This document shows positions 29,286 to 54,038 of a DNA stretch of 64,000 nt, in pieces (the first letter of the stretch is position 1; every line of letters starts with the position of its first letter). The notes under the pieces were generated by a model. The model ran no database searches and was not told the origin of the DNA. It worked only from the letters and a program-made list of their open reading frames with translations. Origin of the DNA: Demequina aurantiaca (GTDB lineage: Bacteria; Actinomycetota; Actinomycetes; Actinomycetales; Demequinaceae); NCBI RefSeq assembly GCF_000975135.1, contig NZ_BBRF01000003.1:62001-126000 (forward strand). The letters are read 5' to 3'. The translations under genes were made by a program, and so were the position numbers.

Positions 29286-29332
29286 GCTTCGAGCCTACTG
29301 CCTGTCGCGTTCGTCGCCTGAGGGCGCCTGCA

Positions 29333-31827: not shown

Positions 31828-31977
31828 GTGCCCATCGTAGGCGGGAGGCGGGCAGCCCACCGACAGATCGCCCTGGCTTCAGCACTGTTAAAGCAACCGT
31901 GCCGAGCCCGCCTACCCGCGCCTCGTGCCATGCACATCAGCGAGGTCTACCGCTCCGATGTGCCATCGCACGGCGGT

Positions 31978-34146: not shown

Positions 34147-34167
34147 GGTGCCTATTGTGCCTCCTAC

Positions 34168-35337
34168 TTAACGCGCGGCGCTGACCAACGCGGCAGCGCG
34201 GTCGGTGCGCTCCCACGTGAAATCAGGCAGCTCGCGCCCAAAGTGACCGTAGGCGGCCGTCTGCCGGTAGATGGGACGCTGCAGGTCGAGATCCGCGATG
34301 ATCGCCTGCGGGCGCAAGTCAAAGACCTCACGAATCGCGCGTTCAATGGCGGCTTCCTCGACTGTTGCCGTGCCAAAGGTCTCCACGTACAGACCCACCG
34401 GGTGTGCGGTACCGATCGCGTACGCGACCTGTACCTCGCATCGGGCGGCAAGACCCGCAGCTACGACATTCTTCGCCACCCAGCGCATCGCGTAGGTCGC
34501 CGAACGGTCAACCTTTGAGGGGTCCTTGCCCGAGAAGGCGCCGCCACCGTGCCGCGCCATGCCCCCGTACGTGTCAACGATGATCTTCCGACCGGTGAGG
34601 CCAGCATCGCCCTTGGGGCCGCCGATCTCAAAGATGCCGGTGGGGTTGATCAGCGACCTGTGCCCGGACGCGTCCAGGTCGTAACCCGCGAGCACCGGCC
34701 CGATCACCGCCTCCTCGATCGCTCCGCGCAGTGCCGTCATGCTCATTCCCTCAGCGTGCTGGCTCGACAGCACTACCGTGTCCACGGACACGGCCTTGTC
34801 ACCGTCGTAACCAATGGTGACCTGCGCCTTGCCATCGGGGCGTAGCCCCTCGACGGTGCCGTCGCGACGCACCTGCGCGAGGCGCTGGGTGAGGCGATGC
34901 GCGATCGAGATCGGTAGCGGCATCAACTCGGGGGTGTCCTGGCACGCATAGCCGAACATCAGGCCCTGGTCACCGGCGCCCAGCTGCTTCTCATCGACGT
35001 CCGTCGCCGAGCCAACCCCGAGCCAGATGTCCGGCGATTGCTCGCCGATAGACACCGAGATACCGCACGAATCGCCATCAAAGCCCACCTTGGACGACGT
35101 GTAGCCGATGTCGTTGACGACGCCTCGGATGGTGCCGGGAATGTCGACGTAGGCCTCGGTCGTGACCTCTCCGGCAACGTGTACGAGCCCGGTGGTGACC
35201 ATCGTCTCTACTGCGACGCGGGAGAGGGGATCCTGGCGAAGCATCTCGTCGAGGATCGCGTCGCTCACCTGGTCACAGACCTTGTCGGGGTGACCCTCGG
35301 TCACGGATTCGGACGTGAACAGGCGCAGATTTGTCAT
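34168..35337 (-). CDS. metK: S-adenosylmethionine synthetase
   Basis: A 389-residue enzyme making SAM from methionine and [32 protein letters not shown] and [17 protein letters not shown] are the three signature regions, with catalytic His and Lys residues in place. ATG 35337 has no Shine-Dalgarno; the -10 box TATGCT lies seven bases before it. The 202 bases upstream contain no SAM-riboswitch pattern that I can recognise. It heads metK-priA. Confidence 0.96.
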
Positions 35338-35350
35338 GCCGGTAAGCATA
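35335..35350 (-). promoter_or_regulatory. Putative leaderless metK promoter
   Basis: Minus-strand TATGCT (35345-35350) ends seven bases before ATG 35337, placing the start point at or near the A of ATG. A weak GAAGTG lies 17 bases further up. Confidence 0.5.
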
Positions 35351-35539
35351 GCCAAAGCCACTGACGGCACTTCCGCACGGGCCGCATCAACGGAGTGCCA
35401 CTCCGCGCGGACTTCCGGCGCGCAACGTGCGTACCCCCGATCGCACCGGACCCGGTGCAGTTGTGCTCCGTGCGCGGCACCATTGTCGATCGCGGACGTC
35501 GTGAGCGGTCGGGGTGGAGCGTGACCGCGGTGCGGTTCT

Positions 35540-36814
35540 TCAGGAACGCATGGAGACGATGCGGTCGAGGATTGCGTGCGCGACGGCGAGCTTGGATCCG
35601 CTCGCCTCGGCCACCGCCTCGCCGTTCACATCCAGCATCGTCACGGTGTTGGGGACATCGCCGAACCCCTGTCCCCCGCCCACCGCGTTAAGCACCAGCA
35701 GGTTCGCGCCCTTTCGACGCGCCTTCGCAGCACCATGCTCGAGTACGCTCGCCGTGCTGTCGCCAGTCTCCGCCGCGAAGCCCACGACGGTCTGGCGTGC
35801 CGGGCGCTCGGCAACCAGCGCAGCGAGGATGTCCTCGGTAGGAACCAACTCCAGCGTCAGCCCGGCCTGGTCAGCTGTCGCGTCACCAGTCTTCTTGATC
35901 TTGGTCGCGCTCACCTCGCGAGGGCGAAAGTCCGCGACTGCGGCGGCCATGATCACGACGTCGGCGTCCTTCGCGGCGTCCTTCACCGCCTCTGCCAACT
36001 CCGCGGAAGTCTCCACGTCCACGCGGACGATGCCCTCGCCAGACGGCAGCACCACGTTGGCTGCCACGAGGGTGACGTTCGCGCCGCGGTCGGCCGCGGC
36101 CTGAGCCAAGGCGAGGCCCTGGTGTCCGCTGGACCTATTTCCGAGGTAGCGCACGGCGTCCACGGGCTCGTGCGTGCCGCCGGCACTGATGACCACGCTG
36201 ACACCCGCCAGGTCTCCCCACCCGGCGTCACTTGCACGAGAGCCAGCCCCAGCATCGTCCGCTTGGGTGGTTGCCACCGGCAACCCGCGTCCCTCGGCGA
36301 CGGCGTAGAGCGCGGCAACCAAGTCGTCGGGCTCGGGCAGGCGCCCGGGTCCGGAGTCGGCGCCGGTGAGGCGGCCAACGGCCGGATCGATCACGTGGAC
36401 CCCGTGCTCGCGCAGCGTGGCCACGTTGGCCTGGGTTGCCGCGTTCTGCCACATCTCCGTGTGCATGGCGGGCGCTACGACCACCGGCGCCTGCGTGGCG
36501 AGCAGTGCGTTGCCCAGCAGATCTTTGGCGCTGCCATGAGCCATCGACGCAAGGAAGTCGGCCGTCGCGGGTGCCACCAGCACGATGTCTGCTCGTTGCC
36601 CTAGCCGCACGTGTGCGACGGAGGGGACGTCCTCGAAGGTTTCGGTGGGCGCGGGGTGCCCGGACAGGGCCTCCCACGTTGCTCGACCCACAAAGTTAAG
36701 CGAGGCGGCGGTGGGGACGACGCGCACCGAGTGCCCGTCCTCGCGCAACTGGCGCAAAACGATCGCAACCTTGTAGGCGGCGATGCCGCCCGTCACGCCC
36801 AGGAGGACGCGCAA
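35540..36814 (-). CDS. coaBC: Bifunctional CoaBC (phosphopantothenoylcysteine synthetase/decarboxylase)
   Basis: A 424-residue fusion for two coenzyme A steps. CoaC (about 1-185) is a flavoprotein: [10 protein letters not shown], HxRLG active-site histidine in [17 protein letters not shown]. CoaB (about 210-420) binds CTP and phosphopantothenate: [21 protein letters not shown] starts it and AAAVADF follows. The start is a TTG at 36814, which is uncommon. rpoZ lies 29 bases upstream; same order as in mycobacteria. Confidence 0.94.
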
Positions 36815-36843
36815 TGTGACCTATGTTGGGTGGGGCTAACGCT

Positions 36844-37107
36844 TTACGCGTCGTCGCCCAGCACCAACAGCGAGCCTTCGTTGATCTCGCGGAGTGCGAC
36901 GGAAAGAGGCTTGTCGGTCGAGTCTGCCTCGACCAGCGGGCCAACGTTCTCAAAGTGACCCTCGCCGAGTGCCTCGTAGTACGAGTTGATCTGGCGTGCA
37001 CGCTTGGAGCTGTAGATCACCAGGGCGTACTTGGAGTCGACCTTCTCGAGCAGTTCGTCGATGGGCGGGTTGGTGATTCCGATGGGATTGGCAATCGTTC
37101 CGGCCAT
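36844..37107 (-). CDS. rpoZ: RNA polymerase omega subunit
   Basis: An 87-residue omega subunit that folds around the beta' C-terminus. [31 protein letters not shown] is the conserved core that includes the family signature; the C-terminus is acidic. GGAG lies five bases before ATG 37107. It sits between gmk and coaBC as expected. Confidence 0.94.
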
Positions 37108-37166
37108 GGTTACTCCAATGCTTAAGGGGTTTGCTTGGGTGAGCGTAGGCTCAAACTTCCACTATC

Positions 37167-37721
37167 TTACCGTGAAGGCAGGACCAGGCGCTCCAGGGCC
37201 TCGGCCGCGTCCATCACATTGTCATTCACGATGACCTTGTCGAACTCGCCTTGGGCGGCAATCTCCTCGCGTGCGGTCGCGAGGCGGCGCTCGCGTTCTC
37301 GCTCATCCTCCGTGCCTCGGCCGACGAGTCGGTCAACCAACACGTCGAAGGACGGCGGCGCGATGAACACTTGTAGTGCCTCCGGCATCGACTCACGCAC
37401 CTGGCGCGCGCCCTGCAGGTCGATCTCCAGGATGCACGGCGTGCCGTCGGACAGGCGATCCTCGACAGGGCCACGCGGTGTCCCGTACCGATGGCCGCCA
37501 AAGACCGTGGCCCATTCCAGCAATTCACCCGTCTCGACCATGCGAGTGAACTCGTCGTCGCTCACGAAAAAGTAATGCTGACCGTCGACCTCGCCGGGCC
37601 GCGGCCCGCGTGTGGTCGCTGAAACGGATAGCCACACGTCCGGGTGGCGGTCGCGAAGGGCGCGAACCACCGTGCCCTTGCCTACCCCGCTGGGACCGGC
37701 AAGAACCACGAGTCGGTTCAC
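37167..37721 (-). CDS. gmk: Guanylate kinase
   Basis: A 184-residue enzyme that phosphorylates GMP. The P-loop is GPSGVGKGT (about 9-17), GMP contacts are in [14 protein letters not shown], and the lid helix follows DERERERRL. The GTG start 37721 overlaps the mihF stop (GTGA). The mihF-gmk-rpoZ order is conserved. Confidence 0.95.
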
Positions 37722-38032
37722 CGACTCTCGCGTTCCAAGAGAGCCTCGACCTGATGGGTGCCGAGTCCACGTACACGCCGCGCGGCGGAGATTCCGATCT
37801 CCTCCATCGTGGTGGTCGCACGCTTCGGTCCCACGCCGGGCAGGCACTGCAAAAGATCATGGACGCGAATGCCCGCGAGGGCGTCGTCCGCCTTGGCCCG
37901 TGAGATCGCCTTCTCAAGCGTCATCTCTCCGCGCGAAAGCTCTTCTTTGAAAACGCGTCGCGCGGAACGCACGGCGGTCGCCTTCACGAGTGCCGCTGCT
38001 CGCTGTTCGTCGCTGAGCTCTGGAGTAGCCAC
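37718..38032 (-). CDS. mihF: Actinobacterial integration host factor MihF
   Basis: A 104-residue helical nucleoid protein, unrelated to the IHF alpha/beta pair, that bends DNA with a helix-two-turn-helix. The core [20 protein letters not shown] and [13 protein letters not shown] (the H2TH DNA-binding turn) are diagnostic. GTG 38032 follows AAGGAG; the longer frame upstream is not supported. Confidence 0.94.
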
Positions 38033-38069
38033 TGTGTCTCCTTCTACTAGAACCGGTTGTCGCAATGCA

Positions 38070-38918
38070 TTACGACGGGGTTTGCAGGAGTGATTGAGCT
38101 TCGGTCGATGCCGAGTCAATGGCTTCGACCAACCTGTCAACCGACGGTCCTGCCTGCAAGACGCCCCGTGATTGATTGACGAGTACGCACCGCCGTGCGT
38201 TCCCGAACACCTGCTCAAGTTCTGCAGGCCCCGCTCCTTGTGCGCCCACACCGGGTGCCAAGATCGGCCCATTGAGAGCCGATAAATCTATGCCGAGGTC
38301 CGTCACTGCGGACCCGACCGTCGCCCCAATAACCAAGCCGATGCTGCCCAATGGCTCAGCCCCAGCGTTGAGCTCGGCGGCGGCGGCGGTGACGGCCGCG
38401 GCAACGGCCACGCCGTCCGCCGAGGTCGCGTGTTGCACGGTGTGTCCCTCGGCATTAGAGGTCAGCGCGAGCACAAAGACGCCCTTACCGTGCTTCGCCG
38501 CGAGGTCAAAGGCCGGCTGAAGTGACCCCACACCCAAATAGGGCGAGAGCGTCACGGAGTCGGCCTCGAAGGGAGCGCCAGGCGCCAGGAACGCCTCGGC
38601 GTATGCCTGCATTGTCGAGCCGATGTCTCCCCGCTTGGCGTCGAGAACGCTCAGCAGTCCCTGCTCGCGGCAGCGTCCCAGCAGATTCTCAAGGACACCC
38701 ATTCCCCGCGACCCGTGCCGTTCAAAGAAGGCGGCGTTCGGCTTCACTGCGGCAGCACGCCCGGTGGCCGCGTCAATGACCGCGTCGGCAAACAACTGCA
38801 GCGAGTCGGCGTTGTCTGGCAGCCCCCACGCTTCGAGCAGACCCGGGTGCGGGTCGATGCCCACACATAGCGGCCCGTGCTCGTCCATCGCCAGCGCCAG
38901 TCGGGAGCCAAAGGTCAC
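38070..38918 (-). CDS. pyrF: Orotidine 5'-phosphate decarboxylase
   Basis: A 282-residue type 2 OMP decarboxylase for the last step to UMP. CVGIDPHP, AVKPNAAFFERHG and DAKRGDIGST hold the active-site Asp/Lys residues. GTG 38918 is preferred because GGAGGAG lies six bases upstream; GTG 38933 would sit before that site. In many actinobacteria pyrF follows carB directly, but here the carbohydrate island separates it from carB by more than 10 kb, so it must rely on another promoter. Confidence 0.94.
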   Translation of the reverse strand: MTFGSRLALAMDEHGPLCVGIDPHPGLLEAWGLPDNADSLQLFADAVIDAATGRAAAVKPNAAFFERHGSRGMGVLENLLGRCREQGLLSVLDAKRGDIGSTMQAYAEAFLAPGAPFEADSVTLSPYLGVGSLQPAFDLAAKHGKGVFVLALTSNAEGHTVQHATSADGVAVAAAVTAAAAELNAGAEPLGSIGLVIGATVGSAVTDLGIDLSALNGPILAPGVGAQGAGPAELEQVFGNARRCVLVNQSRGVLQAGPSVDRLVEAIDSASTEAQSLLQTPS

Positions 38919-39021
38919 CGCAGTCTCCTCCACAGGTCGTCGCCAAAATCACTCTATGTAGGCATACTACCTGCGATGACTCGCGCGTGTGCGGTCGCAA
39001 GAGACTGACGTTTGCGTACTG

Positions 39022-39939
39022 TTACCGCGCTGCGGTCAGCTCCGCACGTGTGGGAGGCTGTGCCCCGCGCCGGCCAACGGTAATGGCCGCCGCCGTGACA
39101 CAGTCAACCAACAGATCCCGGGCCTGCTCCTCGGTCAGTTCGCCCACGGTGCCACGCGAACTGTCGCAGGTGAACGCCAGCCACCCAGCAATGAGCGCGG
39201 ACATGAACGAATCACCCGCGCCCACGGTGTCGACGACGTCGACCGTGCGCGCGGGCACAAAGACTTGGCCAAACGTGCCCAATGCCCAAGCTCCGTCGGA
39301 ACCGAGCGTGACCACCACGAGACTCGGTCCGAGGGCGAGCCAGCGAGAGGCCACCTTCACGGGATCCTCCCCCGGCTCGATCCACGCGATGTCCTCGTCG
39401 CTCGCCTTGACCACGTCCGCCCGGCTCAGGCACCTGCGAACGCTGTGGAGCGCAGCCTCGCGATCGTGAATCAGTCCGGGCCGGATGTTTGGGTCAAAAC
39501 TCATCGATGCCACCAGGGGGCCTTCGATTGCCGACGCGATGGCGTCGGCACCGGGTTGCATGACGGCCGCAATCGAGCCGGCGTGGAGATGAAGCGGCCC
39601 GTGTGTAGCAATCGCATCGTCAAGCGCTGCATCGCTCAGGTTCCAGGCGATCTCAAAGCGATACGAGGCCGCGCCGCCGGTGCCGATCGTCGCGGTCGCC
39701 GTCGAGGTGGGGGTCGCGGTGTCGACCGCGACGATGTCCGCGCCCGCGGACTCAAGGTGGGCCCGAATGGTCTCCCCGGCATCGTCTGGTGCTAAATGGG
39801 TAACGAAGGTTGGCCGCAGCCCCAGGCGGGCGAGTCCCACGGCCACGTTTGCTGGGCTGCCGCCCGGGACGGCCGCCACGTGTCCTGCGGTGTCACTGAC
39901 GATATCCAGTAACGACTCACCAACGACGAGGACGTTCAC
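39022..39939 (-). CDS. PfkB-family fructokinase
   Basis: A 305-residue kinase, most likely phosphorylating fructose to fructose 6-phosphate. PGGSPANVAVGLARLG is the fructokinase form of PfkB motif 1, and DTVGAGDSF motif 2 holds the catalytic Asp. GTG 39939 overlaps the stop of the AGE isomerase gene by four bases, so the product of that enzyme probably feeds it. Last gene of the mannan operon. An exact substrate cannot be fixed by sequence alone, but the ribokinase-type GGKGANQ is absent. Confidence 0.85.
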   Translation of the reverse strand: MNVLVVGESLLDIVSDTAGHVAAVPGGSPANVAVGLARLGLRPTFVTHLAPDDAGETIRAHLESAGADIVAVDTATPTSTATATIGTGGAASYRFEIAWNLSDAALDDAIATHGPLHLHAGSIAAVMQPGADAIASAIEGPLVASMSFDPNIRPGLIHDREAALHSVRRCLSRADVVKASDEDIAWIEPGEDPVKVASRWLALGPSLVVVTLGSDGAWALGTFGQVFVPARTVDVVDTVGAGDSFMSALIAGWLAFTCDSSRGTVGELTEEQARDLLVDCVTAAAITVGRRGAQPPTRAELTAAR

Positions 39940-41219
39940 GACAGTTCCTCGTCATCCGTGGCCACTGCGGGCGTGCGGTCAACGCTCAGGTCGACGCCGC
40001 GGGCCAGCGCCGTAGCAAACGACGGCGCGAGCGGCACGTCGGGCCATAGCGCGGCTTGATACGCGTGATACGTGTCCGGCTTGCCGGGCCATACTGAAGC
40101 GGCCGGAACATTGCGCGAATCGAGTTCGTGATGCCACGATCCGAACTCAGCGTCGACGAGGAATTCGTCCACAAAGCGCCACCAACTCTCGGCGTCGTCC
40201 GCGTAGCGTTGCTCACCCGTTGCAATGGCGAGCGCATGTGCCGCCGCAATCGCCTCGGCGGCGACCCAATGCATGCGTTCGCGCACCACCGGCCTCCCGT
40301 CCCAGTCTGTGGTGTACACAAACCCCAGCTCGCCGTCCGCGTTCCAACCATCGGTGACGGCTCGCCCGTACAACGTGCGGGCACCCGCCATCAACCCCGG
40401 GGGCGCGTTGTCGCCAAGCGTCGCGTCGACCGACAAAAAGAGACGGGCCCATTCCAAGCCGTGGCCCACCGTCGCTCCGTACGGTCGGAAGGGGTCGGCA
40501 GGGATATTACGGTGATGCTCGAGCATCGGATGCCAGGCCTCGTCAAAGTGCTCGGGGATGCGCCAGTCATTGGACTCCGCCCACGACAGTACACGCGCGG
40601 CGATGCGTCCCGCGCGCTCGTGCCAGATGCCGTCGCCGGTGGCGTCTCCCGCAGCGAGGTAGGCCTCCACCGTGTGCATGTTGGCATTGACACCCCGGTA
40701 CGTCTCCAGGGTCAACCAGTCGCGGTCCCATTCCTCGACGGAGAGACCCTGCTCCTCATCCCAAAACCTGCTCTCGCTTACCTGCAGCGCGCGCTTGAGA
40801 AGCGCTCGTGCACCGTCGGCGCCAGCGAGCAGGGCGGACGATGCCGCCAGGACAACGAATGCGTGCCCGTAGGCCTGCTTCGCGGTATTGACGGGGCCCG
40901 CGGCGTCGACAGCTGCCCACCAGCCGCCGTACTCCTGATCTTCGAAGACACTGCTCAGCGTGCGCACGCCGTGGTCGACCAGTGTGCGGAGCTCCCGGTA
41001 ATCCGGGCCGCCGTCCTCGGGTTGTTCATTCGCGAGCACGCCGAGCGCCGCGATGTGGGTCATGCGGCACGTAATCCACAGTTCCTCGGGCTTGTCCTGC
41101 ACTACCTTTCCGCGCTCGTCAAGCCAGCCAAAGCCGCGATCGGTCCTGGCGGCCCGGGTGAACCTCAGTAGGTCTGACCGCTGCTTGGCGCGCTCGCGTA
41201 TCCGCTGTTCCGGCCTCAC
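39936..41219 (-). CDS. AGE-family sugar epimerase/isomerase, probable mannose isomerase
   Basis: A 427-residue alpha6/alpha6-barrel enzyme of the N-acylglucosamine 2-epimerase family. Conserved His-containing segments are VGHGLEWARL, HWVAAEAIAAAHAL and EFGSWHHELD, which carry the catalytic and substrate residues in mannose isomerases and cellobiose epimerases. GTG 41219 overlaps the beta-mannosidase stop. Lying between a beta-mannosidase and a fructokinase, mannose-to-fructose isomerisation is the most economical role; epimerisation of mannobiose is less likely because no mannosylglucose phosphorylase is present. Confidence 0.85.
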   Translation of the reverse strand: MRPEQRIRERAKQRSDLLRFTRAARTDRGFGWLDERGKVVQDKPEELWITCRMTHIAALGVLANEQPEDGGPDYRELRTLVDHGVRTLSSVFEDQEYGGWWAAVDAAGPVNTAKQAYGHAFVVLAASSALLAGADGARALLKRALQVSESRFWDEEQGLSVEEWDRDWLTLETYRGVNANMHTVEAYLAAGDATGDGIWHERAGRIAARVLSWAESNDWRIPEHFDEAWHPMLEHHRNIPADPFRPYGATVGHGLEWARLFLSVDATLGDNAPPGLMAGARTLYGRAVTDGWNADGELGFVYTTDWDGRPVVRERMHWVAAEAIAAAHALAIATGEQRYADDAESWWRFVDEFLVDAEFGSWHHELDSRNVPAASVWPGKPDTYHAYQAALWPDVPLAPSFATALARGVDLSVDRTPAVATDDEELS

Positions 41220-43762
41220 CGTGGCATCACCAGAGCAGTGCCGGCGAACAGCAGGCTGCGCCACTCGTAAGTGGCGAGTGTGGTGCCCCCCAGTCGACTC
41301 ACCGTGAAAGTCGCGGACTCACCAGGAAGAAGAGTGAGTAACTGCCGATCCACCCGCACGCCCTCAAGCGCGGAATGCGTCTCCGCCAGGAGCGAGAGGT
41401 CACGAATCAGGTCGTCGGCCACCACCGTCACGCGCACGGCGCCCGATGCTGCGTCCGGATTAACCTGCACGCTGGCCAATGATGCGGCCGGGTGCTCGAG
41501 CGCATCGTCGGCCACCAGCCATCGCACGGCGCGCTTGTCCTCGACGTCCACCACCACCGCAACTGCTCCCGAAGGCACCCGCGACGGCGCCACCTCGGCG
41601 TGACCGTCGGCCACCACATGCAGTCCGATGCGCTCGTCGAGCAACACCTCGCCGCGTTCAGTGACGGCGCGTACTCGGGCCATCGCCTCCCACGTCTGCG
41701 GCACGTCATTGACTACCGTCAGCGCGTGCGGCGACGTTGGCGATGACGCGACGATGGCGCGGGACGCCATGATCTGCGCCGAGGCGTACCATCCCAGCTT
41801 GCGTGCGCCGGTGACGTCCACGACCGCCCAGGACAACGCGGGCCAGCAGTCGTTCAACTGCCACCACAGGGTGCCGGAACATGGCTCGTGCAGGGAGCGG
41901 AAGCGCCCGATGGAGGCCCGTATGGCGCGTGCCTGCATGAGTTGAGTCGCGAAGTACCAGCCACGCCCGTCCGTGGGAAGGTGAGCCACGTGATCTGCGA
42001 TGCCACGAGCGAGCCCCGCCTTGCCTTCGGGGTGCTTCTGGAGACGCTGGAGTCGCGGATCGTCACCACTAGTCGGCTCTGATCCCAATGCGCGGATCAG
42101 TGTGTGCCACGAGGCGGGGGCCTGCCAACCAAACTCGGAGGCGAATCGCGAGGTCTTCTCCTCGAACGCGGTGTAATCGAGTTGATTCCACGTGTCCCAG
42201 TGGTGAGTGGTCCCCTGCGTCGGGTCGTTCGGGTGCACACCGTCGTCCGGCGAGAACGGAGATCCGGGGATGTAAGGCCGTTGCGGGTCGAGTTCGGCGA
42301 GCGCAGCGGGAATGACCTCGTGATACAGGTGGGCGCCCCAGGCGCCATCCTCCCCCAAGGTCTCCTTCCAACCCCAGTCTTCGAAGCCCCAGAGATTCTC
42401 GTTGCAGCCGCACCACAGCGCCAGCGACGCGTGGTGGCCGACGCGCCTGACGGCATCGGCCACCTCGCACTGGACCCGCGTCACCTGCGCGTCATCTTCT
42501 GCGTACGCCGCACAAGCGAACGAGAAGTCCTGCCACACCAGTACACCGGCCTCGTCGCAAGCCTCAAAGAAGTCCCGGGACTCGACGACGCCTCCACCCC
42601 AGATGCGCAACATGTTGGCGCCCGTGTCCACCGCCTCCTGAACCAGTTCGCGGGTACGCTCTCGCGTCACTCGCTCCGGCAGAACGTCAGCAGGAATCCA
42701 GTTGAACCCGCGCGCCCAGACGCGCGATCCGTTCACGTGTACTTCGAAGGAGCGCCCGATGTCGTCCTCATCTTGCACCAATGAGACGTGGCGAAAACCC
42801 ACCCGACGATGCGTCGAGTCCAGTTCCGCTCCCGAGTCGTCAACCACTGCAATGTGCACGTCGTAGAGCGGCTGCTCACCACGGTCCACCACGTCCCAGC
42901 GACGGGCTTGGGGCACCTGGAGGTCAAACTCGAGGTGGCCGTGGGCAAGGTCAAACCGCTGCGACGCGAGAGCCTCGCCCCCACCCGTGGGGACCACGGT
43001 GGCAACCACAGCATCGGCCGCCCCGTCGATGTCCAGACGCGCGCTTAGCGACGCGCCGTTACTCCAGTCGGTCGTGAGAAGAAGCTGGCCGATGGAGGCC
43101 TGACGAAGGCGCGTGACCGTCGCCGCGCGCCACAGGCCGGCAGTGATGGTGGTGGGACCCCAGTCCCATCCGAATGAGCAGGCCATCTTGCGCACCTGGT
43201 TGAACGGGATCTCGTACATGTCAGCACGAGGCAACGGATCGGACGCCTCGAGCGCGTTCGCGACCGGAAGCACAGGATGGAACTCGACCTCCACGCTCCA
43301 CTCCTTGCCCGCAGAGACGGCGGGGATAGCGGCGGAGTCGCCGGTGTCGTCGGAGGACGGGTGCGCGGGGTGTGCGTCGTCCGTGAGTTCGATGCTCCAG
43401 GCATGAAACATGTCGTCGGTCTCGAGAACGGAGTTGCCGTCCACGCGCACCGTGGCCAGCGTGTCAACGCCCTCGAAATCGATTGTCACGTGGGCGCCAT
43501 CACCCAGGCGCGGAACAGAGGTTCGGTAGATCCATGTGCAATGGGTCGCCCATGCGACGTCCTCCTCAAGACCGTCGACGGTGACGTCCGACGCGAGTCC
43601 GGCCTCAATCAGGGTGCCCAGGACGCTGCCTGGCACCGTGGCGGGAATGCCCTCTGTCAAGGCCGCAGCCACACCGGCGGGAGCGGACTCGGAGTCGGCA
43701 CCCAGGAACAACCGCCAGTTCGTCAACGCCTCGCGAGTGGTCGCACTACTATCGCGCGTCAC
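41216..43762 (-). CDS. GH2 beta-mannosidase
   Basis: An 848-residue exo-glycosidase releasing mannose from the non-reducing end of beta-mannosides. The sugar-binding domain (about 20-225) and Ig-like domain lead to the TIM barrel, with acid/base Glu 455 in the GCNEN motif and nucleophile Glu 543 in ASEFGW; FGWDWGP near 197-203 is typical of beta-mannosidases. No signal peptide, so it acts on imported oligosaccharides. Start GTG 43762 overlaps the permease stop. An Asp/Ser/Ala-rich insert lies at about 127-150. Confidence 0.92.
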   Translation of the reverse strand: MTRDSSATTREALTNWRLFLGADSESAPAGVAAALTEGIPATVPGSVLGTLIEAGLASDVTVDGLEEDVAWATHCTWIYRTSVPRLGDGAHVTIDFEGVDTLATVRVDGNSVLETDDMFHAWSIELTDDAHPAHPSSDDTGDSAAIPAVSAGKEWSVEVEFHPVLPVANALEASDPLPRADMYEIPFNQVRKMACSFGWDWGPTTITAGLWRAATVTRLRQASIGQLLLTTDWSNGASLSARLDIDGAADAVVATVVPTGGGEALASQRFDLAHGHLEFDLQVPQARRWDVVDRGEQPLYDVHIAVVDDSGAELDSTHRRVGFRHVSLVQDEDDIGRSFEVHVNGSRVWARGFNWIPADVLPERVTRERTRELVQEAVDTGANMLRIWGGGVVESRDFFEACDEAGVLVWQDFSFACAAYAEDDAQVTRVQCEVADAVRRVGHHASLALWCGCNENLWGFEDWGWKETLGEDGAWGAHLYHEVIPAALAELDPQRPYIPGSPFSPDDGVHPNDPTQGTTHHWDTWNQLDYTAFEEKTSRFASEFGWQAPASWHTLIRALGSEPTSGDDPRLQRLQKHPEGKAGLARGIADHVAHLPTDGRGWYFATQLMQARAIRASIGRFRSLHEPCSGTLWWQLNDCWPALSWAVVDVTGARKLGWYASAQIMASRAIVASSPTSPHALTVVNDVPQTWEAMARVRAVTERGEVLLDERIGLHVVADGHAEVAPSRVPSGAVAVVVDVEDKRAVRWLVADDALEHPAASLASVQVNPDAASGAVRVTVVADDLIRDLSLLAETHSALEGVRVDRQLLTLLPGESATFTVSRLGGTTLATYEWRSLLFAGTALVMPR

Positions 43763-44580
43763 TTGGTCGCCCCCTGCGTAAACCCGCTGTAGATGAACCT
43801 CTGCAGCAGGACGAAGATGATCAGGGTGGGGATGATCACGATGATCACACCCGCGGCTATGACCTCCCAGTGGGCACCAAACGGACCCGTGAAGCGGAAC
43901 AGAGAGGTCGAGATGACGCCCAGGTCCCGCGAGGGCATATATAAGAACGGTATATAGAACTCGTTGTAGGCCGCGAACCCCTTGATGATCACCACCGTCG
44001 CGATAGCGGGCTTGAGCAGCGGGAAGATGATCTGCCAGAAGATCCGGAACGGTCCTGCGCCCTCGAGCTTGGCGGCCTCGTCAAGTTCACGTGGCACGGC
44101 CCGGATGAACTGCAGGAAGATGTAAATCGAGACGATGTCGGTGCCCATGAAGAGCACGATGGCCGCCCAGCGCGTGTTGTAAAGGCCAAGGTTATTTACG
44201 ACCTGGAACGTAGCGACCTGCGTGGTCACAGCGGGCACGAGCACCGCGAACAGGAAGACTCCCACCACGACTTTGCGGAAGCGGAACTCGAAGCGGTCGA
44301 TCGCATAGGCGGTCATGGCACCGATGATCACGGTGCCGGTGATCGACACCAACAGAATGATGCCGGTGTTGAAGAACGCATGCAGCATGCCGCCCTTGGT
44401 GAACGCCTCGACATAATTCTCGAAGCCGAAGCTTTCAGGCAGGTCGAACGGTCCCGACTGTTGGAACTCGCGTGACGTCTTGAAAGACGCCATCACGATG
44501 GTGACCAGGGGCAGCAGCGTCACGAGTGACGCCACGATCAGGGTGAGGTACTTGAGCCCTCCAAAAGTTGCGCTTTTCAC
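43759..44580 (-). CDS. Manno-oligosaccharide ABC permease, MalG type
   Basis: A 273-residue permease with about six helices and the EAA loop (ELDEAAKLEGAGPFRIF) that contacts the ATPase. The start at GTG 44580 overlaps the MalF-type stop (GTGA). No ATP-binding subunit is encoded in the island, so a shared MsiK-type ATPase elsewhere in the genome is expected, as in many actinobacteria. Substrate is inferred from the flanking glycosidases. Confidence 0.9.
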   Translation of the reverse strand: MKSATFGGLKYLTLIVASLVTLLPLVTIVMASFKTSREFQQSGPFDLPESFGFENYVEAFTKGGMLHAFFNTGIILLVSITGTVIIGAMTAYAIDRFEFRFRKVVVGVFLFAVLVPAVTTQVATFQVVNNLGLYNTRWAAIVLFMGTDIVSIYIFLQFIRAVPRELDEAAKLEGAGPFRIFWQIIFPLLKPAIATVVIIKGFAAYNEFYIPFLYMPSRDLGVISTSLFRFTGPFGAHWEVIAAGVIIVIIPTLIIFVLLQRFIYSGFTQGATK

Positions 44581-45515
44581 GTCAGGTTCACCTTCTCGTC
44601 GGGCACAAGTCTCCTTTGGATCCACGTGATGAGCAGGACGATGAGCAGCAGGATCACGGCCATGGCAGACGCGAGTCCCACCTTGTTGAACTTGAACGCC
44701 ATGTTGATGGTTTGGATGACAAAGGTCATGGATCCGTTGGCACCGCCAGTCATGATGTACGGGATCTCAAACACCGCGAGCGAACCGGAGATCGCCAGAA
44801 TCATCGACAGCCCCACGATGGGCCGGATGCTCGGCAGGATGATGTATCGGAACTGCTGCCACTTCCCGGCGCCGTCAAGGGACGACGCCTCATAGAGGGA
44901 AGGATTCACGGACTGGATGGCCCCCAGGAAGAGCACAAAGTTGAGGCCCATGTAGCGCCACACCGAGGTGCCGGACAGTGAGAAGTTGATGAGGTCGGGG
45001 TTGCCGAGCCATTGCTGCTGGAACTGTTCGAGTCCAAGCGCGGCGAGGGAGGCGTCGAGGGTGCCGCCGGGCCGGAAGAAGTAGAGGAACGTGAAGCCGA
45101 TGGCCACGCCGTTGATGAGGTACGGGAAGAACAGGATGCCTTTGAACAGGTTCTTGAACCGGGTGTTGAAGGACAGGATGGTCGCGAAGTACAGCGCGAG
45201 GCCCATCTGTACGAACGAGGCCACAAAGTAGTACAGGCTCACGAGGAAGACACGGAACAGCTCCGGTCGCGTGAAGAACTCAATGTAGTTGCCGAGCCCC
45301 ACGTACTCCTTGTCCTTGCTGAGTCCGTTCCATTCGGTAAACGAGTACCAGATCATGTTTCCGACGGGAAGCAGAGTGAACAGGCAAAGAAAGATCAGGG
45401 GGACGATCAGGAACAACCACGGTGTTGCCCCCTGGAGGAACCGCTGACGGCCGCTTCGCGCGTCGCGCGCCGCGCGCACCGCGTGAGGGCGCACCGGAGT
45501 GCTAAAGAATGACAT
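44577..45515 (-). CDS. Manno-oligosaccharide ABC permease, MalF type
   Basis: A 312-residue permease. A basic N-terminus (about 1-30) precedes helix 1, and the EAA-type loop is LYEASSLDGAGKWQQF. ATG 45515 follows GGAGA. It is separated from the binding-protein gene by 80 bases that contain a strong hairpin, a common way of lowering permease relative to binding-protein expression. It forms the channel with the next gene. Confidence 0.9.
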   Translation of the reverse strand: MSFFSTPVRPHAVRAARDARSGRQRFLQGATPWLFLIVPLIFLCLFTLLPVGNMIWYSFTEWNGLSKDKEYVGLGNYIEFFTRPELFRVFLVSLYYFVASFVQMGLALYFATILSFNTRFKNLFKGILFFPYLINGVAIGFTFLYFFRPGGTLDASLAALGLEQFQQQWLGNPDLINFSLSGTSVWRYMGLNFVLFLGAIQSVNPSLYEASSLDGAGKWQQFRYIILPSIRPIVGLSMILAISGSLAVFEIPYIMTGGANGSMTFVIQTINMAFKFNKVGLASAMAVILLLIVLLITWIQRRLVPDEKVNLT

Positions 45516-45550
45516 GACTTCTCCGACGTGAGGTGGATGGAGGGGAAGAC

Positions 45551-45589
45551 GTCGCTCGCCCCGGCGGAGTCTCCACCGGGGCGGGCGAC
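45551..45589 (-). promoter_or_regulatory. Intercistronic stem-loop between binding protein and permeases
   Basis: A 14-bp stem (45551-45564 with 45576-45589; GTCGC-CGCCCCGG core with one wobble pair) has an 11-base loop. No T run follows. It probably protects the upstream message or partly stops transcription rather than acting as a full terminator. Confidence 0.65.
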
Positions 45590-45595
45590 ATCTGA

Positions 45596-46939
45596 CTAGC
45601 CTTCGACGCTAGCGCGGGCCTCGGCCCACTTGGAGTTCAGGTCGTCGAAGATGTCCTGCTTGGTCTCGTCACGAGCGCCGCGTGCGGCGTCGACGATGCG
45701 CTGACGGTAGTCAGGGCTCCAGAGACCGATCTCGGCGGCGTTGTCGATGTCGCTGACCAAGCTTTCCTTGCCGGCTGGCGGCGGGGTGAGCTCGATGTAC
45801 TCGACACCAGCGGCGTCAAAGTCCTTCAGCGTGTCAGGCGTCGGTCCGTCGAGGCGAGGCGAGATTCCACCCTGATCGGTGGCGTATCCGGACTCGTCAG
45901 CGAACCAGTCGATCCAGGCACGTGCCGCGGCCTTGTTCTCCGAGTGAACGTTGATGCCGTTCTTGTAGTCACCACTGATCACCGAGTGGAAGGTGCCGTC
46001 AACCTGGTTGGGGAAGGGCATGTAGCCGATGTCTGCCGCGTCATCCGCAGCGGCCTGCATCTGCACAATGGCCCATGATCCGAGCGCCATGGCTCCGATC
46101 TTGCCCGTGCCGAGGTCCGTCTTTGACTGCTCCCAGTTGGTGGTGGTGGGGTCTTCCTCAATGTTGCCAGCGGCTGCCGCATCGAAGATCAGCGAGTCGA
46201 TGATGTAGTGATCCATGCCCTCGCTCCACGGGGCGTCCGTGTCGGCGAGCTCGTTGACGGCGTTCGCGTTCGCGGTCACCCCTCCGCGGTCGGACTCCCA
46301 CTGCGTGAGCGGCCAGCCGTCGGCGTAGTTGGTGTAGAGGGGCGTCGCGTCGGTGTTGTCGGCGATCATCTGGAGATCCTTCTGGAACTCCTCGGGCGTG
46401 GTCGGGTCCTCGGTGATACCTGCGTCTGACCAGACCTTCTTGTTGTAGACGAGGCCGTTGGCGTTACCGGTGATGGCGATGCCGTAGGACTGTCCGTCGT
46501 AGTTCGCCTCCGAGCCGATGAAGCGGTAGGTCTGAGAGAGTTCGTCGACCGAACCGAGCGGCTCAAAGAAGTCCGGGTAGTCGCTCGCGTTTACCGAGTT
46601 CGGAATGAGCAGCACGTCGCCGTAGTCGTCGGTGCTCATGCGGGTCGCAACTTCGCCCTCGTAGTCGGTGATGGCCTCGAACTTGACCTCAACGTCTGGG
46701 TACTTCGCCTCAAACGCCGACTTATAGTCAGCGAACACCGTGTCGACAAGGTCGGTGCGGTTTGTCAGGACCGTGATCTCGCCGGCAACCTCGGCCATGG
46801 CCGAGTCGCTGGTCGTTGAGGATGACTCCGGTGCTGGCGTGTTGCTGCCGTCTCCGTTGTCGCTACTGCCGCTGCACGCTGCGAGCGTGAACGCCAAGCT
46901 GGTGGTGGCCGCAACCATGGCGGCTGTGCGCATCTTCAT
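45596..46939 (-). CDS. Sugar-binding lipoprotein of the manno-oligosaccharide importer
   Basis: A 447-residue solute-binding protein of the CUT1 class. The signal peptide ends in lipobox LAAC with Cys 22, followed by a Ser/Gly/Asn linker, so it is exported and lipid-anchored. Fold features include EITVLTNRTD, LVYNKKVW and AMALGSWAI. AAGGGG lies eight bases before ATG 46939. First gene of the six-gene operon; a LacI operator overlaps its -10. The mannan specificity is inferred from the operon. Confidence 0.9.
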   Translation of the reverse strand: MKMRTAAMVAATTSLAFTLAACSGSSDNGDGSNTPAPESSSTTSDSAMAEVAGEITVLTNRTDLVDTVFADYKSAFEAKYPDVEVKFEAITDYEGEVATRMSTDDYGDVLLIPNSVNASDYPDFFEPLGSVDELSQTYRFIGSEANYDGQSYGIAITGNANGLVYNKKVWSDAGITEDPTTPEEFQKDLQMIADNTDATPLYTNYADGWPLTQWESDRGGVTANANAVNELADTDAPWSEGMDHYIIDSLIFDAAAAGNIEEDPTTTNWEQSKTDLGTGKIGAMALGSWAIVQMQAAADDAADIGYMPFPNQVDGTFHSVISGDYKNGINVHSENKAAARAWIDWFADESGYATDQGGISPRLDGPTPDTLKDFDAAGVEYIELTPPPAGKESLVSDIDNAAEIGLWSPDYRQRIVDAARGARDETKQDIFDDLNSKWAEARASVEG

Positions 46940-47015
46940 TGATGTAACCCCTTCAGGATTTTTGCTATTTCCGCAGCGTGATCGCCACAGTGCCGCAGTG
47001 CGACTGAATATGACT

Positions 47016-47026
47016 TTAACGATTAA
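47016..47026. promoter_or_regulatory. LacI-type operator 1
   Basis: TTAACGATTAA: TTAA arms around CGA, with the central CG of LacI sites. It overlaps the operon -10. Confidence 0.65.
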
Positions 47027-47039
47027 GTGATGCCATCAC
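47027..47039. promoter_or_regulatory. Additional dyad in the operon promoter
   Basis: GTGAT-GCC-ATCAC is a perfect inverted repeat between operator 1 and the -35. The odd spacing argues against a CRP/GlxR site (which needs six central bases). It may bind a second regulator. Confidence 0.45.
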
Positions 47040-47070
47040 AACCCATGGTGGCCAGTTTCGGCATCGTGTT

Positions 47071-47086
47071 ACTTAATCGTTATAGT
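47071..47086. promoter_or_regulatory. LacI-type operator 2
   Basis: ACTTAATCGTTATAGT, which in opposite orientation shares ACTTAATCGTTA with operator 1. Centre-to-centre distance is about 57 bases, so looping or cooperative binding is possible. Confidence 0.6.
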
Positions 47087-47294
47087 AGACCGCACCTTCC
47101 CCGCACACATGGAAGACTCGCCGGGCAATCTCTGCCCCGTATATCTGGAGTTTCGGACCGAGCGCGTGGCGGCCACGTGTGAGTGAGCACTCCGATCATC
47201 GGTCACGAGCCCCTGGTGACTGGCGAGTATTGCGAGGACTTACAACTCGTGGCACTTGGCCACGCTGCCCCGTGGAGACAGATGCGGACGTCTG

Positions 47295-48332
47295 TCAGCG
47301 TGGAGCGGGCCCTAGCGTGCCGCGGTCAACGAGGCGGGCCACCGAGGAACGCACCGACTTCACCTCGGCAGACCCGTTCACCACGTTGAGCAGCATCGTC
47401 GCGGCATCCGCCCCATAGGCGGACACGTCTCGGCTCAGGGCGCTGAGCGCGGGGACTGTCAACTCACACAGCGGCGAATCGTCCCAGGCCAGGACCGACA
47501 GTTGACCCGGAACCTCAACCCCCCTGCCCGTCGCGGCCCTGACCGCTCCGATGGCGGTGAGGTCGTTGTCAAAGACCATGGCGGTGGGCGGATTCGCCCC
47601 GTCAAGGAGCTGGTGACACGCTGCCGTGCCGGCCGCGACGGAATAGTCGGTGTTGACTTCGGCCACCACTTGGATGCCTAGCCGCTCGCCGGCGCGTGCC
47701 ATCGCGTCACTACGCACGTGGGTGTGGACGAATCGCTCAGGACCGGCGATGTGAGCCACCCGCTTGTGCCCCAGTTCCGCGAGGCGTTCCATGGCGGCAT
47801 TTGCCGCGGCGGCGTCGTCGCTACCAACTGCGGGCAATCCATCGGAGAATGCGGGGTCGCCGACAACCACCACGGGCAGGCCAATCTCGTTGATGATCGG
47901 CAGTCGTTGGTCGTCGATTGCGAGGTCGGTGACGAAGATGCCGTCGACCCGGCGAGCGGACCACCACTCCCGATAGGTCTGCAGCTCGCGCTCCGGGTCA
48001 GGGGTGACCTGCAGAAGCAGCGCATAGCCCCGCGCGGAGATCACCTTCTCAATACCAGCGACGAAGGACATGAAGAACGGCTCAATACCCAGGACGTCGG
48101 GCTCGCGCGTGATCACCAGCCCGAGGGTTGCGGTGCCACCACCCCGCAGGGCCCTTGCCGCGGTGCTGGGAACCCAGCCCACCTCGCGTGCCACCTCAAG
48201 AATGCGCTTGCGAGTCTCGTCCGAAACCCCGGGGCGCCCGTTGAGGGCGTACGAGACGGCTCCAGCGGACACGCCGCTTTGCTTGGCGATTTCCGCAATG
48301 GTCGGCCGACTGGGCGGCTTGCGCATCGCCAT
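47295..48332 (-). CDS. LacI-family repressor of the mannan genes
   Basis: A 345-residue repressor. The helix-turn-helix and hinge (about 10-65: TIAEIAKQSGVSAGAVSYALNG and VPSTAARALRGG) precede a periplasmic-binding-like sugar domain. ATG 48332 is used, with ATG 48326 as an alternative. It lies between the importer operon and the divergent mannanase gene, and matching TTAA/CG palindromes occur at both, so it most likely controls both, released by a mannose-derived sugar. Confidence 0.92.
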   Translation of the reverse strand: MAMRKPPSRPTIAEIAKQSGVSAGAVSYALNGRPGVSDETRKRILEVAREVGWVPSTAARALRGGGTATLGLVITREPDVLGIEPFFMSFVAGIEKVISARGYALLLQVTPDPERELQTYREWWSARRVDGIFVTDLAIDDQRLPIINEIGLPVVVVGDPAFSDGLPAVGSDDAAAANAAMERLAELGHKRVAHIAGPERFVHTHVRSDAMARAGERLGIQVVAEVNTDYSVAAGTAACHQLLDGANPPTAMVFDNDLTAIGAVRAATGRGVEVPGQLSVLAWDDSPLCELTVPALSALSRDVSAYGADAATMLLNVVNGSAEVKSVRSSVARLVDRGTLGPAPR

Positions 48333-48418
48333 GCTTTTCTCACTTCCGTTTCGAGGACACCGGGCGGATCGCCCTGCACGACACGCTTCATTGCCGTCGC
48401 GTCACTCCATGTGTTGCC

Positions 48419-48447
48419 TATAGTGTGTCACTACTCAATCGATTAAG
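48419..48447 (+). promoter_or_regulatory. Mannanase promoter with LacI operator 3
   Basis: A -10 TATAGT (48419-48424) is followed by TCAATCGATTAAG (48435-48447), a near-perfect LacI palindrome with central CG, at the expected start point. No strong -35. A start codon at TTG 48425 is rejected because it precedes the operator. Confidence 0.65.
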
Positions 48448-48466
48448 CATACGAAGGGTTCCTCCC

Positions 48467-49435
48467 ATGTCGCTGACCGACACTCCTCTTTCCGCCAAGC
48501 GCCCGTTGCCGGCCGTTCCGTTCCACGCCATGACATGGGGGTGGACTGGCGTCCGCGGCTCGTGGACGACGCCCCAGGCCGCAGCATCACTTGACGCCAT
48601 GATGGAGGTGAAGCCCAACTGGGTGGTACTCGCCTACGCGGCGCTGCAGGACACCGCGCAGTCGACCACCATCAACTGGCGTGACCAGCCCTCGCTGACA
48701 GACGACGAGATCCGTGCCGGGGTGTCCGCCGCCCGTGAGCGCGGCCTGCTGGTCTGCCTCAAGCCCACCGTCAATGTCGCGGATGGCACCTGGCGCGCCC
48801 ACATCGGGTTTTTCGACAAGGACGCGCCCGGCGAGCCCACGTGGAACGAGTGGTTCGACAGCTACGACGAGTACATCCTGCACCACGCCGCTCTTGCTGA
48901 GGAATTGGGAGCCGATCTGTTCAGCATTGGCTGCGAGATGGTACGCGCAGATACTCGCGAGGACCGTTGGCGCAGCCTGGCCGCTCGCGTGCGCGAGGTG
49001 TATTCCGGTCCGATCACGTACAACTGCGACAAGTACCAGGAAGAGAATGTCACCTGGTGGGACGCCGTGGACATCATCAGCTCGTCCGGCTACTACCCCA
49101 CGGGCGACTGGGACGCGCAACTCGCGCGGATCAAGTCGGTGGTGGATGCGCACGGGCAGGAGTTCGTGTTCCTGGAGGCGGGCTGCCCCAGTCGCGACAC
49201 CTCGCCGGCGCGACCCAACGACTGGGCTCTCGCAGGTGAGCCCAGCGAGCAGGCTCAGGCCGACTATCTCGAAGAGATGCTGGCCGCCATCGATGAGACC
49301 GACTGGGTGCTGGGCGTCGCGCTGTGGGACTGGCCCCCAGCTCTCTATTCACTCAGCGAGGCAGCGTCCAACGACGACTATTGCATGTACGGCAAAAAGG
49401 GCGCCGAGGTAGTCGCGCGGCACTTCACACGTTGA
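48467..49435 (+). CDS. GH113-like intracellular beta-mannanase
   Basis: A 322-residue TIM-barrel glycoside hydrolase without a signal peptide. The clan A pattern is seen: Glu 157 in SIGCEM as acid/base and Glu 237 in FVFLEAG as nucleophile, with PFHAMTWGWTGVRGSW at the start as in GH113 proteins. Homologues are often mislabelled xylanase. ATG 48467 follows a weak purine stretch. It would cut imported manno-oligosaccharides before the GH2 enzyme. A close family such as GH5-like is the main alternative. It is divergent from lacI. Confidence 0.8.
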   Translation: MSLTDTPLSAKRPLPAVPFHAMTWGWTGVRGSWTTPQAAASLDAMMEVKPNWVVLAYAALQDTAQSTTINWRDQPSLTDDEIRAGVSAARERGLLVCLKPTVNVADGTWRAHIGFFDKDAPGEPTWNEWFDSYDEYILHHAALAEELGADLFSIGCEMVRADTREDRWRSLAARVREVYSGPITYNCDKYQEENVTWWDAVDIISSSGYYPTGDWDAQLARIKSVVDAHGQEFVFLEAGCPSRDTSPARPNDWALAGEPSEQAQADYLEEMLAAIDETDWVLGVALWDWPPALYSLSEAASNDDYCMYGKKGAEVVARHFTR

Positions 49436-49440
49436 ACGAA

Positions 49441-49473
49441 CGGTGCCGGCAAGGTCTTCCCTCGCCGGCACCG
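49441..49473. terminator. Bidirectional terminator-like hairpin, mannanase/carB
   Basis: A perfect 10-bp stem (CGGTGCCGGC 49441-49450 with 49464-49473) has a 13-base loop between two convergent genes. No clear T run on either side. Confidence 0.7.
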
Positions 49474-49488
49474 CACGTCGACGTCTCG

Positions 49489-52799
<3,311 letters not shown>

Positions 52800-52800
<1 letters not shown>

Positions 52801-54038
52801 TAGTTGCGCGCTCCGTTCTTGGCCGCGTCTTTGGCGCTGGCCATCAGGTCGACAAAACGATCAAAGAGGTAGGCCGCATCGTGCGGGCCGGCGGCAGCCT
52901 CCGGGTGGTACTGGACGGAGAAGGCGGGGATGTCGAGGCACTCGAGACCCTCGACCACGTCGTCGTTGAGGCACACGTGGCTCACACGTACGCGGCCGTA
53001 ACCCGAGGGCGACTGCGAGTCGCGGTCGGTGGGCGCATCGACGGCGAAGCCGTGGTTGTGCGCGGTGATCTCCACCTTGCGGGTCCTGCGGTCCATCACG
53101 GGCTGGTTGATGCCGCGGTGGCCGAACGCCAGCTTGTAGGTCCCGTACCCGAGCGCGCGGCCCAGGATCTGGTTGCCGAAGCAGATGCCGAAGAAGGGCA
53201 CGTCCGCGTCGAGGATCTCGCGCAGCGTGGTGACGGCGCGATCGGCGGCACTGGGGTCGCCCGGTCCGTTGGAGAAGAACACTCCGTCGGGCTGCTTGGC
53301 AAGGATGTCAGCGGCGGACATGGTCGACGGGACCACGGTCACACGGATGCCACGCTGCGCCATCATCTCGGGAGTCATGGCCTTGATGCCGAGGTCGACG
53401 GCCACGACGTCGGCGATGCGGTCGGTGCCCTCAGGAGGCTCGACCACGTACTCGTCCATCACGGACACGGCATCGGCCAGGTGGGCGCCGACCATGGACT
53501 CGGCGGACTTCACTCGGCCCAGCAGCTCCTCCGCGGTAGCGGCGTCCGAGCCAGCAGTGGCACGCGAACCTGCCGCGGCATCGGCGTTGTAGCCGGCCTT
53601 CAGCGCGTCGCCGGAAAAGATGCCGGCGCGCATCACGCCTGCGGTGCGCAGCATGCGGGTGAGTTGGCGGGTGTCGATGCCGGAGATGCCCACGACACCC
53701 TGGGCCTCGAGGTCCTCGTCGAGCGTGCGCTGTGCGCGCCAGTTGGAGGGCTTGCGGGCGGGGTCGCGCACCACATATCCGGCCACCCAGATCTTGCGGG
53801 ACTCGTTGTCCTCGTCGTTCATACCGGTGTTGCCGATGTGCGGCGCCGTCATGGTGACGATCTGACGGTGGTAGCTGGGGTCGGTGAGAGTCTCCTGGTA
53901 ACCGGTCATGCCGGTGTTGAAGACGATTTCGCCCAGAGTCTGGCCCGAGGCACCGTAGGTGCGACCCTCGAGGGTCTGGCCGTCCTCAAGGACGAGCACC
54001 GCCCGGTTGTCGGCATCGGTCATCGCCGTGTCATTCAT
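52800..54038 (-). CDS. carA: Carbamoyl-phosphate synthase small subunit
   Basis: A 412-residue glutaminase that supplies ammonia to CarB. The N-terminal domain ([16 protein letters not shown]) is followed by a class I amidotransferase with its nucleophile in GICFGNQ and the His/Glu of SVQYHPEA. A short Ala/Ser/Thr-rich insert follows about residue 145. ATG 54038 overlaps the pyrC stop. Confidence 0.96.

Follow-up and report, generated by a model that had tools for sequence, protein, structure and literature searches.

A resident beta-mannan utilization cluster of Demequina between carB and pyrF that has probably exchanged places with the neighboring pyrF-to-rsmB block

The cluster at the carB-pyrF joint

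The DNA analyzed here (the window) is a 64,000-nt stretch of the 2.57 Mb genome of Demequina aurantiaca (G000 in our set; RefSeq assembly GCF_000975135.1, contig NZ_BBRF01000003.1, positions 62,001 to 126,000). At 39022-49435 of the window, between carB and pyrF, lie eight genes for a predicted transporter (a binding protein and two permeases), two glycoside hydrolases (GH) of families GH2 and GH113, an isomerase, a kinase and a LacI-family repressor. A preliminary description of this DNA had presented them as a self-contained mannan island inserted into the joint. We propose instead that they form a native Demequina beta-mannan locus under LacI control, which in the ancestor of G000 and D. 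oxidasica exchanged place with the adjacent block of genes from pyrF to rsmB. We put the probability of this reading at about 0.7. The place of the eight genes and the order of the flanking genes were confirmed: pyrF, mihF, gmk, rpoZ, coaBC and metK, then priA, fmt, rsmB and rpe, on the left and carB, carA, pyrC, pyrB and pyrR on the right (mihF, rpoZ and fmt were recognized by eye from the reading frames).

We searched 47 genomes of the family with PyrF and CarB and read the neighborhoods (44 Demequina and three genomes from two other genera). Presence of the cluster at this site is sporadic: it was found there in only two genomes, G000 and its sister D. oxidasica NBRC 106264 (G062), in identical gene order. 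In the other 45, carB and pyrF are adjacent, with 5-133 bp between the aligned CarB and PyrF ends. Because this adjacency is shared by the three genomes of the two other genera (G066-G068), the arrangement in G000 is regarded as derived. The same eight-gene content throughout the family would have pointed to an old vertical arrangement of the family. With two occurrences in 47 and nothing found in its favor, that explanation has practically no chance and is rejected for the genomes examined, so the claim that the joint was interrupted survives. The GH113 gene itself was detected in just six of the 47 genomes.

The rsmB-rpe joint in relatives

The same cluster, or what remains of it, was found in relatives 9.6 kb away, between rsmB and rpe. 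Occupancy of this second joint could be read in 42 of the 47 genomes (it is unreadable in G005, G019, G030, G066 and G068). The joint is occupied in 16 of the 42, the isomerase gene being present in every one: two carry the complete cluster, one a partial cluster and 13 the isomerase gene with few or no other cluster genes (some also with an esterase or kinase gene). The complete clusters belong to D. sediminis NBRC 112286 (G027) and D. litorisediminis NBRC 112299 (G060), and the order and orientation of their eight genes are identical to those in G000; the D. litorisediminis genes are frameshifted in that assembly. The partial cluster, in G033, consists of genes for LacI, the transporter, GH2, an AXE1-type esterase (a Pfam name taken from the G023 member of the same protein cluster) and the isomerase; no kinase match was found at this joint, and the GH113 gene is on a different contig. 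The joint is empty (13-181 bp) in 26 of the 42 genomes, including G000 (51 bp) and G062 (66 bp).

The G000 arrangement equals that of D. sediminis with two adjacent blocks exchanged, P (pyrF to rsmB, 9.6 kb) and M (the cluster, 10.4 kb), neither of them permuted or inverted. Since gene order and orientation are unchanged, we read the data as a swap of the two blocks, in which an ancestral order carB-P-M-rpe would have become carB-M-P-rpe. We infer both this direction of change and its route. Most simply, P-M would have been duplicated in tandem and the outer P and outer M then lost, a route for which no integrase, tRNA or repeat would be needed. The adjacency of the blocks, their unpermuted order and unchanged orientation, and the lack of repeats, tRNAs and recombinase domains would fit such duplication and loss.

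ARAGORN found no tRNA gene in the window, and no repeat of at least 20 nt was found at the three joints. Among the eight cluster proteins, none showed a recombinase or transposase domain (the remainder of the window was not scanned for such domains). The earlier remark that no tRNA, integrase or flanking repeat accompanies the entry is thus borne out, on the integrase side for the cluster proteins. That a since-lost recombinase or transposon excised the cluster as a circle and reinserted it close by is very unlikely. The linear order would be kept only if the circle was cut at the original joint, and the G000 order is unpermuted; moreover, there is no recombinase domain in the cluster, no repeat and no tRNA. 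Some credit is lent to excision by isomerase genes that have left the rsmB-rpe joint elsewhere too, clearly in G020 and G011 and perhaps in G008, G010 and G012.

In these five genomes, isomerase genes of the same clade are located away from rsmB-rpe and the joint itself is empty. An ABC (ATP-binding cassette) exporter gene was also observed at the joint. It lies between the kinase or isomerase gene and rpe in G027 and G033 (L037:2462-4237), and between rsmB and the GH113 gene in G060. The cluster and the exporter gene have thus exchanged sides in G060 relative to G027 and G033, possibly by a second local swap.

Phylogeny, codon use and divergence of the cluster genes

In a species tree of 12 concatenated neighborhood proteins from 44 genomes (quick method), G000 and G062 share a long branch that arises close to the base of Demequina. 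In seven single-gene trees (quick method), the G000 and G062 genes group with Demequina copies, with Actinotalea lenta mixed in for some. The supports (Shimodaira-Hasegawa-like approximate likelihood-ratio test, SH-aLRT) are 95 for LacI, 95 for GH2, 92 for GH113, 97 for the isomerase, 91 for the solute-binding protein, 89 for permF and 98 for permG. The isomerases of G000 and G062 are grouped with that of G060 and the displaced copies of G008 and G010 (97).

In a tree of concatenated LacI, GH113, GH2 and isomerase sequences (13 rows, the divergent GH113 of G033 being excluded), Demequina and A. lenta form one clade (96/97), within which G000 and G062 fall with G060, G027 and A. lenta (99/99) and A. 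lenta stands beside D. sediminis (98/98). Grouping of the G000/G062 cluster with A. soli was rejected (p-AU, approximately unbiased test, 1.9e-9), and so was a Demequina-only clade without A. lenta (p-AU 1.3e-4); from the latter rejection, the cluster seems to have crossed to Actinotalea. In the transporter tree, G000 and G062 group with G033 and G060 (100/99), and D. sediminis and A. lenta share a different transporter (100/100). The binding protein and permeases of these two group with Glycomyces and Microbacterium sequences within an otherwise Demequina-type cluster, which we read as a predicted cassette swap and transfer between genera. For the G000/G062 cluster, a Demequina clade with A. 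lenta nested in it was recovered, and the predicted relationships give no pointer to a source outside the genus.

All eight genes show native codon use, their divergences of 0.024-0.113 being within the range of the flank genes (0.025-0.158). Synonymous divergence between G000 and G062 is 0.16-1.38 in the cluster genes and 0.40-1.15 in the flank genes; from these values, the cluster is taken to be older than the split of the two species. The isomerase and kinase genes (39022-41264), next to pyrF, are the most divergent cluster genes between the sisters (82% and 76% identity), and their excess divergence holds for both kinds of substitution.

Acquisition from another Demequina directly into carB-pyrF, by a G000/G062 ancestor that lacked the cluster, is unlikely. 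Transfer between genera is visible in the nesting of A. lenta within the Demequina clade, and the patchy presence of GH113 in the family also speaks for gain. Against it, in a genome of 2.57 Mb the probability of a chance landing just 9.6 kb away from that site, with the orientation kept, is by our own arithmetic under 1%. Compared by eye, the isomerase and species trees broadly agree, G012 excepted; codon use gives no signal, and neither the cluster nor its ends bear a trace of a mobile element. A foreign island is rejected on the native codon use, the gene trees and the absence of mobile-element marks. What stands of the island insertion is a derived arrangement in two of 47 genomes; a self-contained foreign entry is not supported, given the rsmB-rpe copies in relatives, the empty rsmB-rpe joint in G000, the codon use and the Demequina-type trees.

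Predicted function and LacI operators

The features of the locus are listed in Table 1. In the PDB comparison, the GH2 enzyme is nearest to beta-mannosidases, the binding protein to BlMnBP1 and the isomerase to YihS-type isomerases; the GH113 enzyme is nearest to solved endo-mannanases and shows no signal peptide by eye. By sequence, the locus thus has a binding protein with two permeases, and GH113 and GH2 as predicted intracellular glycosidases. No GH26 mannanase was found in the G000 genome. Two further isomerases of the same family, with about 51-52% identity, are encoded elsewhere in G000 (contig C6, 654550 and 760447).

The operator CTTAATCGATTGAG is found in the divergent lacI/GH113 region of G000, G062, G027 and G060. 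An earlier GH113 frame starting at 48425 is too long: its first codons (LNRL) are the operator at 48434-48447 read as codons. Because of this overlap, the ATG at 48467 is the likelier start. A search for one-mismatch operators in seven relatives found sites in three of them (four in total) and none in the controls; no such site was found in G033, G016, G021 or G036, although G033 has LacI. Elsewhere in the G000 genome, two GH5 mannanase frames are preceded by operator copies: the single perfect site ends 78 bp upstream of the first, whose product has CBM10 modules, and a further one-mismatch site ends 65 bp upstream of the second. Both enzymes have a signal-like start, judged by eye. The site before the second gene is kept in front of its G062 ortholog. 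The two genes are two of the four PF00150 matches in G000, and from the motif they would be the secreted, co-regulated endo-mannanases of the system.

From the protein families and operators, the cluster is predicted to take up beta-manno-oligosaccharides and degrade them under the control of LacI. Mannan would be cut by the exported GH5 mannanases, whose genes lie elsewhere; the lipoprotein and two permeases would import manno-oligosaccharides with an ATPase encoded outside the cluster; GH113 and GH2 would release mannose; the isomerase would convert mannose to fructose and the kinase fructose to fructose-6-phosphate. LacI would repress the cluster and the two mannanase genes. The candidate regulon, the cluster plus the two exported mannanases, is a hypothesis in which co-regulation is suggested by the operator motif alone.

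Table 1. Coordinates of the mannan cluster, its regulatory sites and its flanks in the window
Feature	Position	Strand	Remarks
Empty rsmB-rpe joint	29286-29332		place of the cluster in relatives
Block P (pyrF-mihF-gmk-rpoZ-coaBC-metK-priA-fmt-rsmB)	29333-38933	-	probably changed place with the cluster
pyrF, downstream flank	38070-38933	-	TIGR02127
Promoter-like element upstream of pyrF	38961-38976	-	TCGCAGGTAGTATGCC; common with other Demequina
PfkB-family sugar kinase, predicted fructokinase	39022-39939	-	PF00294; NCBIfam fructokinase 130 bits, cut-off 450 not reached
D-mannose isomerase-like protein, N-acetylglucosamine (GlcNAc) 2-epimerase family	39936-41264	-	PF07221; NF051846 436.6 bits, cut-off 600; PDB YihS relatives
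GH2 beta-mannosidase (predicted)	41216-43762	-	top PDB matches are beta-mannosidases, 5n6u E 8e-103
ABC permease, MalG type	43759-44625	-	PF00528
ABC permease, MalF/UgpA type	44577-45515	-	PF00528
Solute-binding lipoprotein, predicted for manno-oligosaccharides	45596-46939	-	top PDB match BlMnBP1 (Bifidobacterium lactis), E 1e-75; N-terminal signal and Cys by eye
Putative LacI operator copy 1, upstream of the solute-binding protein gene	47014-47027		CTTAATCGTTAAAG, two mismatches
Putative LacI operator copy 2	47072-47085		three mismatches
LacI-family repressor	47295-48332	-	PF00356, PF13377
Putative LacI operator, divergent lacI/GH113 region	48434-48447		one mismatch; same site in G062, G027, G060
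GH113 mannanase/oligomannosidase (predicted)	48467-49435	+	PF22612 E 2e-128; PDB 7dv7, 5ylh; start corrected
Strong hairpin between convergent carB and GH113 ends	49440-49474		53-nt joint -38.4 kcal/mol, z -6.8
carB, upstream flank	49489-52800	-

Expression of pyrF and the carB end

The preliminary description held that pyrF had lost its co-transcription with the pyr operon. This is borne out only in part: the physical linkage is gone and a strong hairpin follows carB, but a shared promoter-like element is kept. A TCGCAGGTA(G/A)NRTGGC-like sequence lies 12-36 nt before the pyrF start in 38 of the 47 genomes, that is, 38 of the 44 Demequina. It was defined from eight relatives and then scored in all 47, those eight included, with a threshold of at least 11 of 16; nine genomes (G001, G004, G005, G019, G028, G063, G066, G067 and G068) are below it. 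Because shuffled single pyrF spacers reach 11-14, the weight of the element rests on its constant sequence and position. In our own reading it resembles a putative -10 region; the standard promoter scan raised no flag there. G000 and G062 kept the element together with pyrF, and because 38 of 44 Demequina share it, pyrF probably had its own promoter already. The kinase gene is 88 bp upstream of pyrF, and read-through from it may reach pyrF. No LacI operator was found upstream of pyrF at up to three mismatches.

The hairpin lacks a T-run, so termination after carB is only suspected. The carB-GH113 joint of G062 is longer and also has a hairpin, which is unexceptional when compared with whole-stretch shuffles (z -1.7, 12 of 200 as good). 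CarB of G000 and G062 is a few residues longer at its C-terminus than that of several relatives, at the new joint (window 49489-49515). In the window, all RNA families stayed below their gathering scores, and a scan of 36000-54000 gave two promoter matches (2.0 expected) and five terminator matches (8.4 expected).

Evidence weighed against a native, locally moved cluster

Several observations weigh against our reading. The full cluster is present at rsmB-rpe in G027 and G060 only, with a large part in G033 and small remains in 13 genomes; a full ancestral cluster at that joint is therefore presumed. None of the 47 genomes has the cluster at both joints, and no remnant of a second P or M was detected in them or at the joints. 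Searches with the 151-bp stretch that follows carB in G062 (blastn) and with a 20-residue peptide read from it (tblastn) gave only weak, chance-like matches to neighborhood sequences; at such an age, relics of duplication would be expected to be erased. The fork that places G000 and G062 in the species tree is weak (support 83, quick method). Their kinase is very divergent, and the kinase tree is uninformative, with too few outside rows nearby. The gene histories are mosaic: the transporter genes of D. sediminis come from another lineage, and the cluster is able to cross genera, as seen in A. lenta. GC content is low compared with most neighbors in the permease genes (0.58-0.59) and the binding protein gene (0.63), and drops to 0.59-0.62 over 44001-47000, the region of these three genes. 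GC at third codon positions (GC3) is normal there (0.81-0.85 in the permease genes), so the dip is read as an amino-acid effect; GC content and codon use, the check proposed for an island, give no mark of one.

On the functional side, the isomerase and kinase, a predicted mannose route into glycolysis, are both below their NCBIfam cut-offs. Genome-wide, two-mismatch operator matches number eight in G000 and eight in the controls, and the four three-mismatch operators in the window compare with 1.5 expected and are reached in 9 of 100 shuffles. Since two-mismatch sites are as common as in the control, the regulon rests on the strict sites and on their location in front of the mannanase genes.

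Comparison with known systems

In the portions of the reports available to us, the Bifidobacterium animalis subsp. lactis ATCC 27673 system (PMC8106489) likewise has an ABC importer with a manno-oligosaccharide binding protein, a putative beta-mannosidase and a GH5 mannanase, but differs in having two binding proteins (BlMnBP1/2) and a beta-glucosidase; neither GH113 nor an isomerase is mentioned in those portions. As far as the text consulted goes, the mannan locus of Faecalibacterium prausnitzii (PMC8262883) likewise has an ABC importer, a predicted LacI-type regulator and a GH113 enzyme predicted to be intracellular; it uses GH130 phosphorylases and an epimerase for mannobiose, whereas the Demequina cluster encodes a predicted GH2 beta-mannosidase, mannose isomerase and kinase. 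GlyR2 of Clostridium thermocellum is described, in the part seen, as a LacI regulator of mannanase genes that responds to mannobiose (PMC10766802).

Among outside clusters (29 annotated of 80 named GH113 loci), all eight genes were found in six of the 29, from Cellulosimicrobium, Oerskovia, Flavimobilis and Nocardiopsis. There the GH113 gene follows the kinase gene on the same strand, whereas in Demequina it is divergent from lacI, and no match to carB, pyrF, rsmB or rpe was found in the stretches read. The clusters of A. lenta, A. soli and Cellulomonas carbonis, the closest outside the genus in the trees, have the same order as Demequina from the divergent GH113 gene to GH2. A related operator, CTTAAGCGCTTAAG, is present in A. 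soli and C. carbonis. None of the three gave a match for the kinase, and A. soli gave none for the isomerase; the 10 kb flanks held no match for rsmB, rpe, carB or pyrF.

In the literature searched, itself limited, we found no report of this rearrangement, and none of the papers found for Demequina and mannan concerns this cluster by its listing; tandem duplication with random loss was met, by title or abstract, in mitochondrial genomes only.

Meaning of the rearrangement

The rearrangement is real and well defined, the cluster itself is of an ordinary sugar-use type, and the reading as a local move replaces that as a foreign island. We also considered whether rsmB-rpe is a place where a catabolic cluster repeatedly swaps with its neighbors without a mobile element. 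The exchange of the cluster with block P in G000 and G062, that with the ABC exporter gene in G060 and the lone isomerase genes elsewhere can be cited for it; the idea is tentative and on balance doubtful. If true, sugar operons would in general be able to enter housekeeping operons through recurrent duplication and loss at short range, and genes such as pyrF would thereby come to lie behind a sugar-controlled promoter.

What looks like a fresh island is here more plausibly a set of resident genes that moved a short distance, which is seen only when neighborhoods are compared across the genus. An interrupted operon alone is insufficient for calling horizontal transfer. In G000, the genes pyrF, gmk, coaBC and metK now directly follow what is predicted to be a LacI-controlled sugar operon, a regulatory setting that can be tested.

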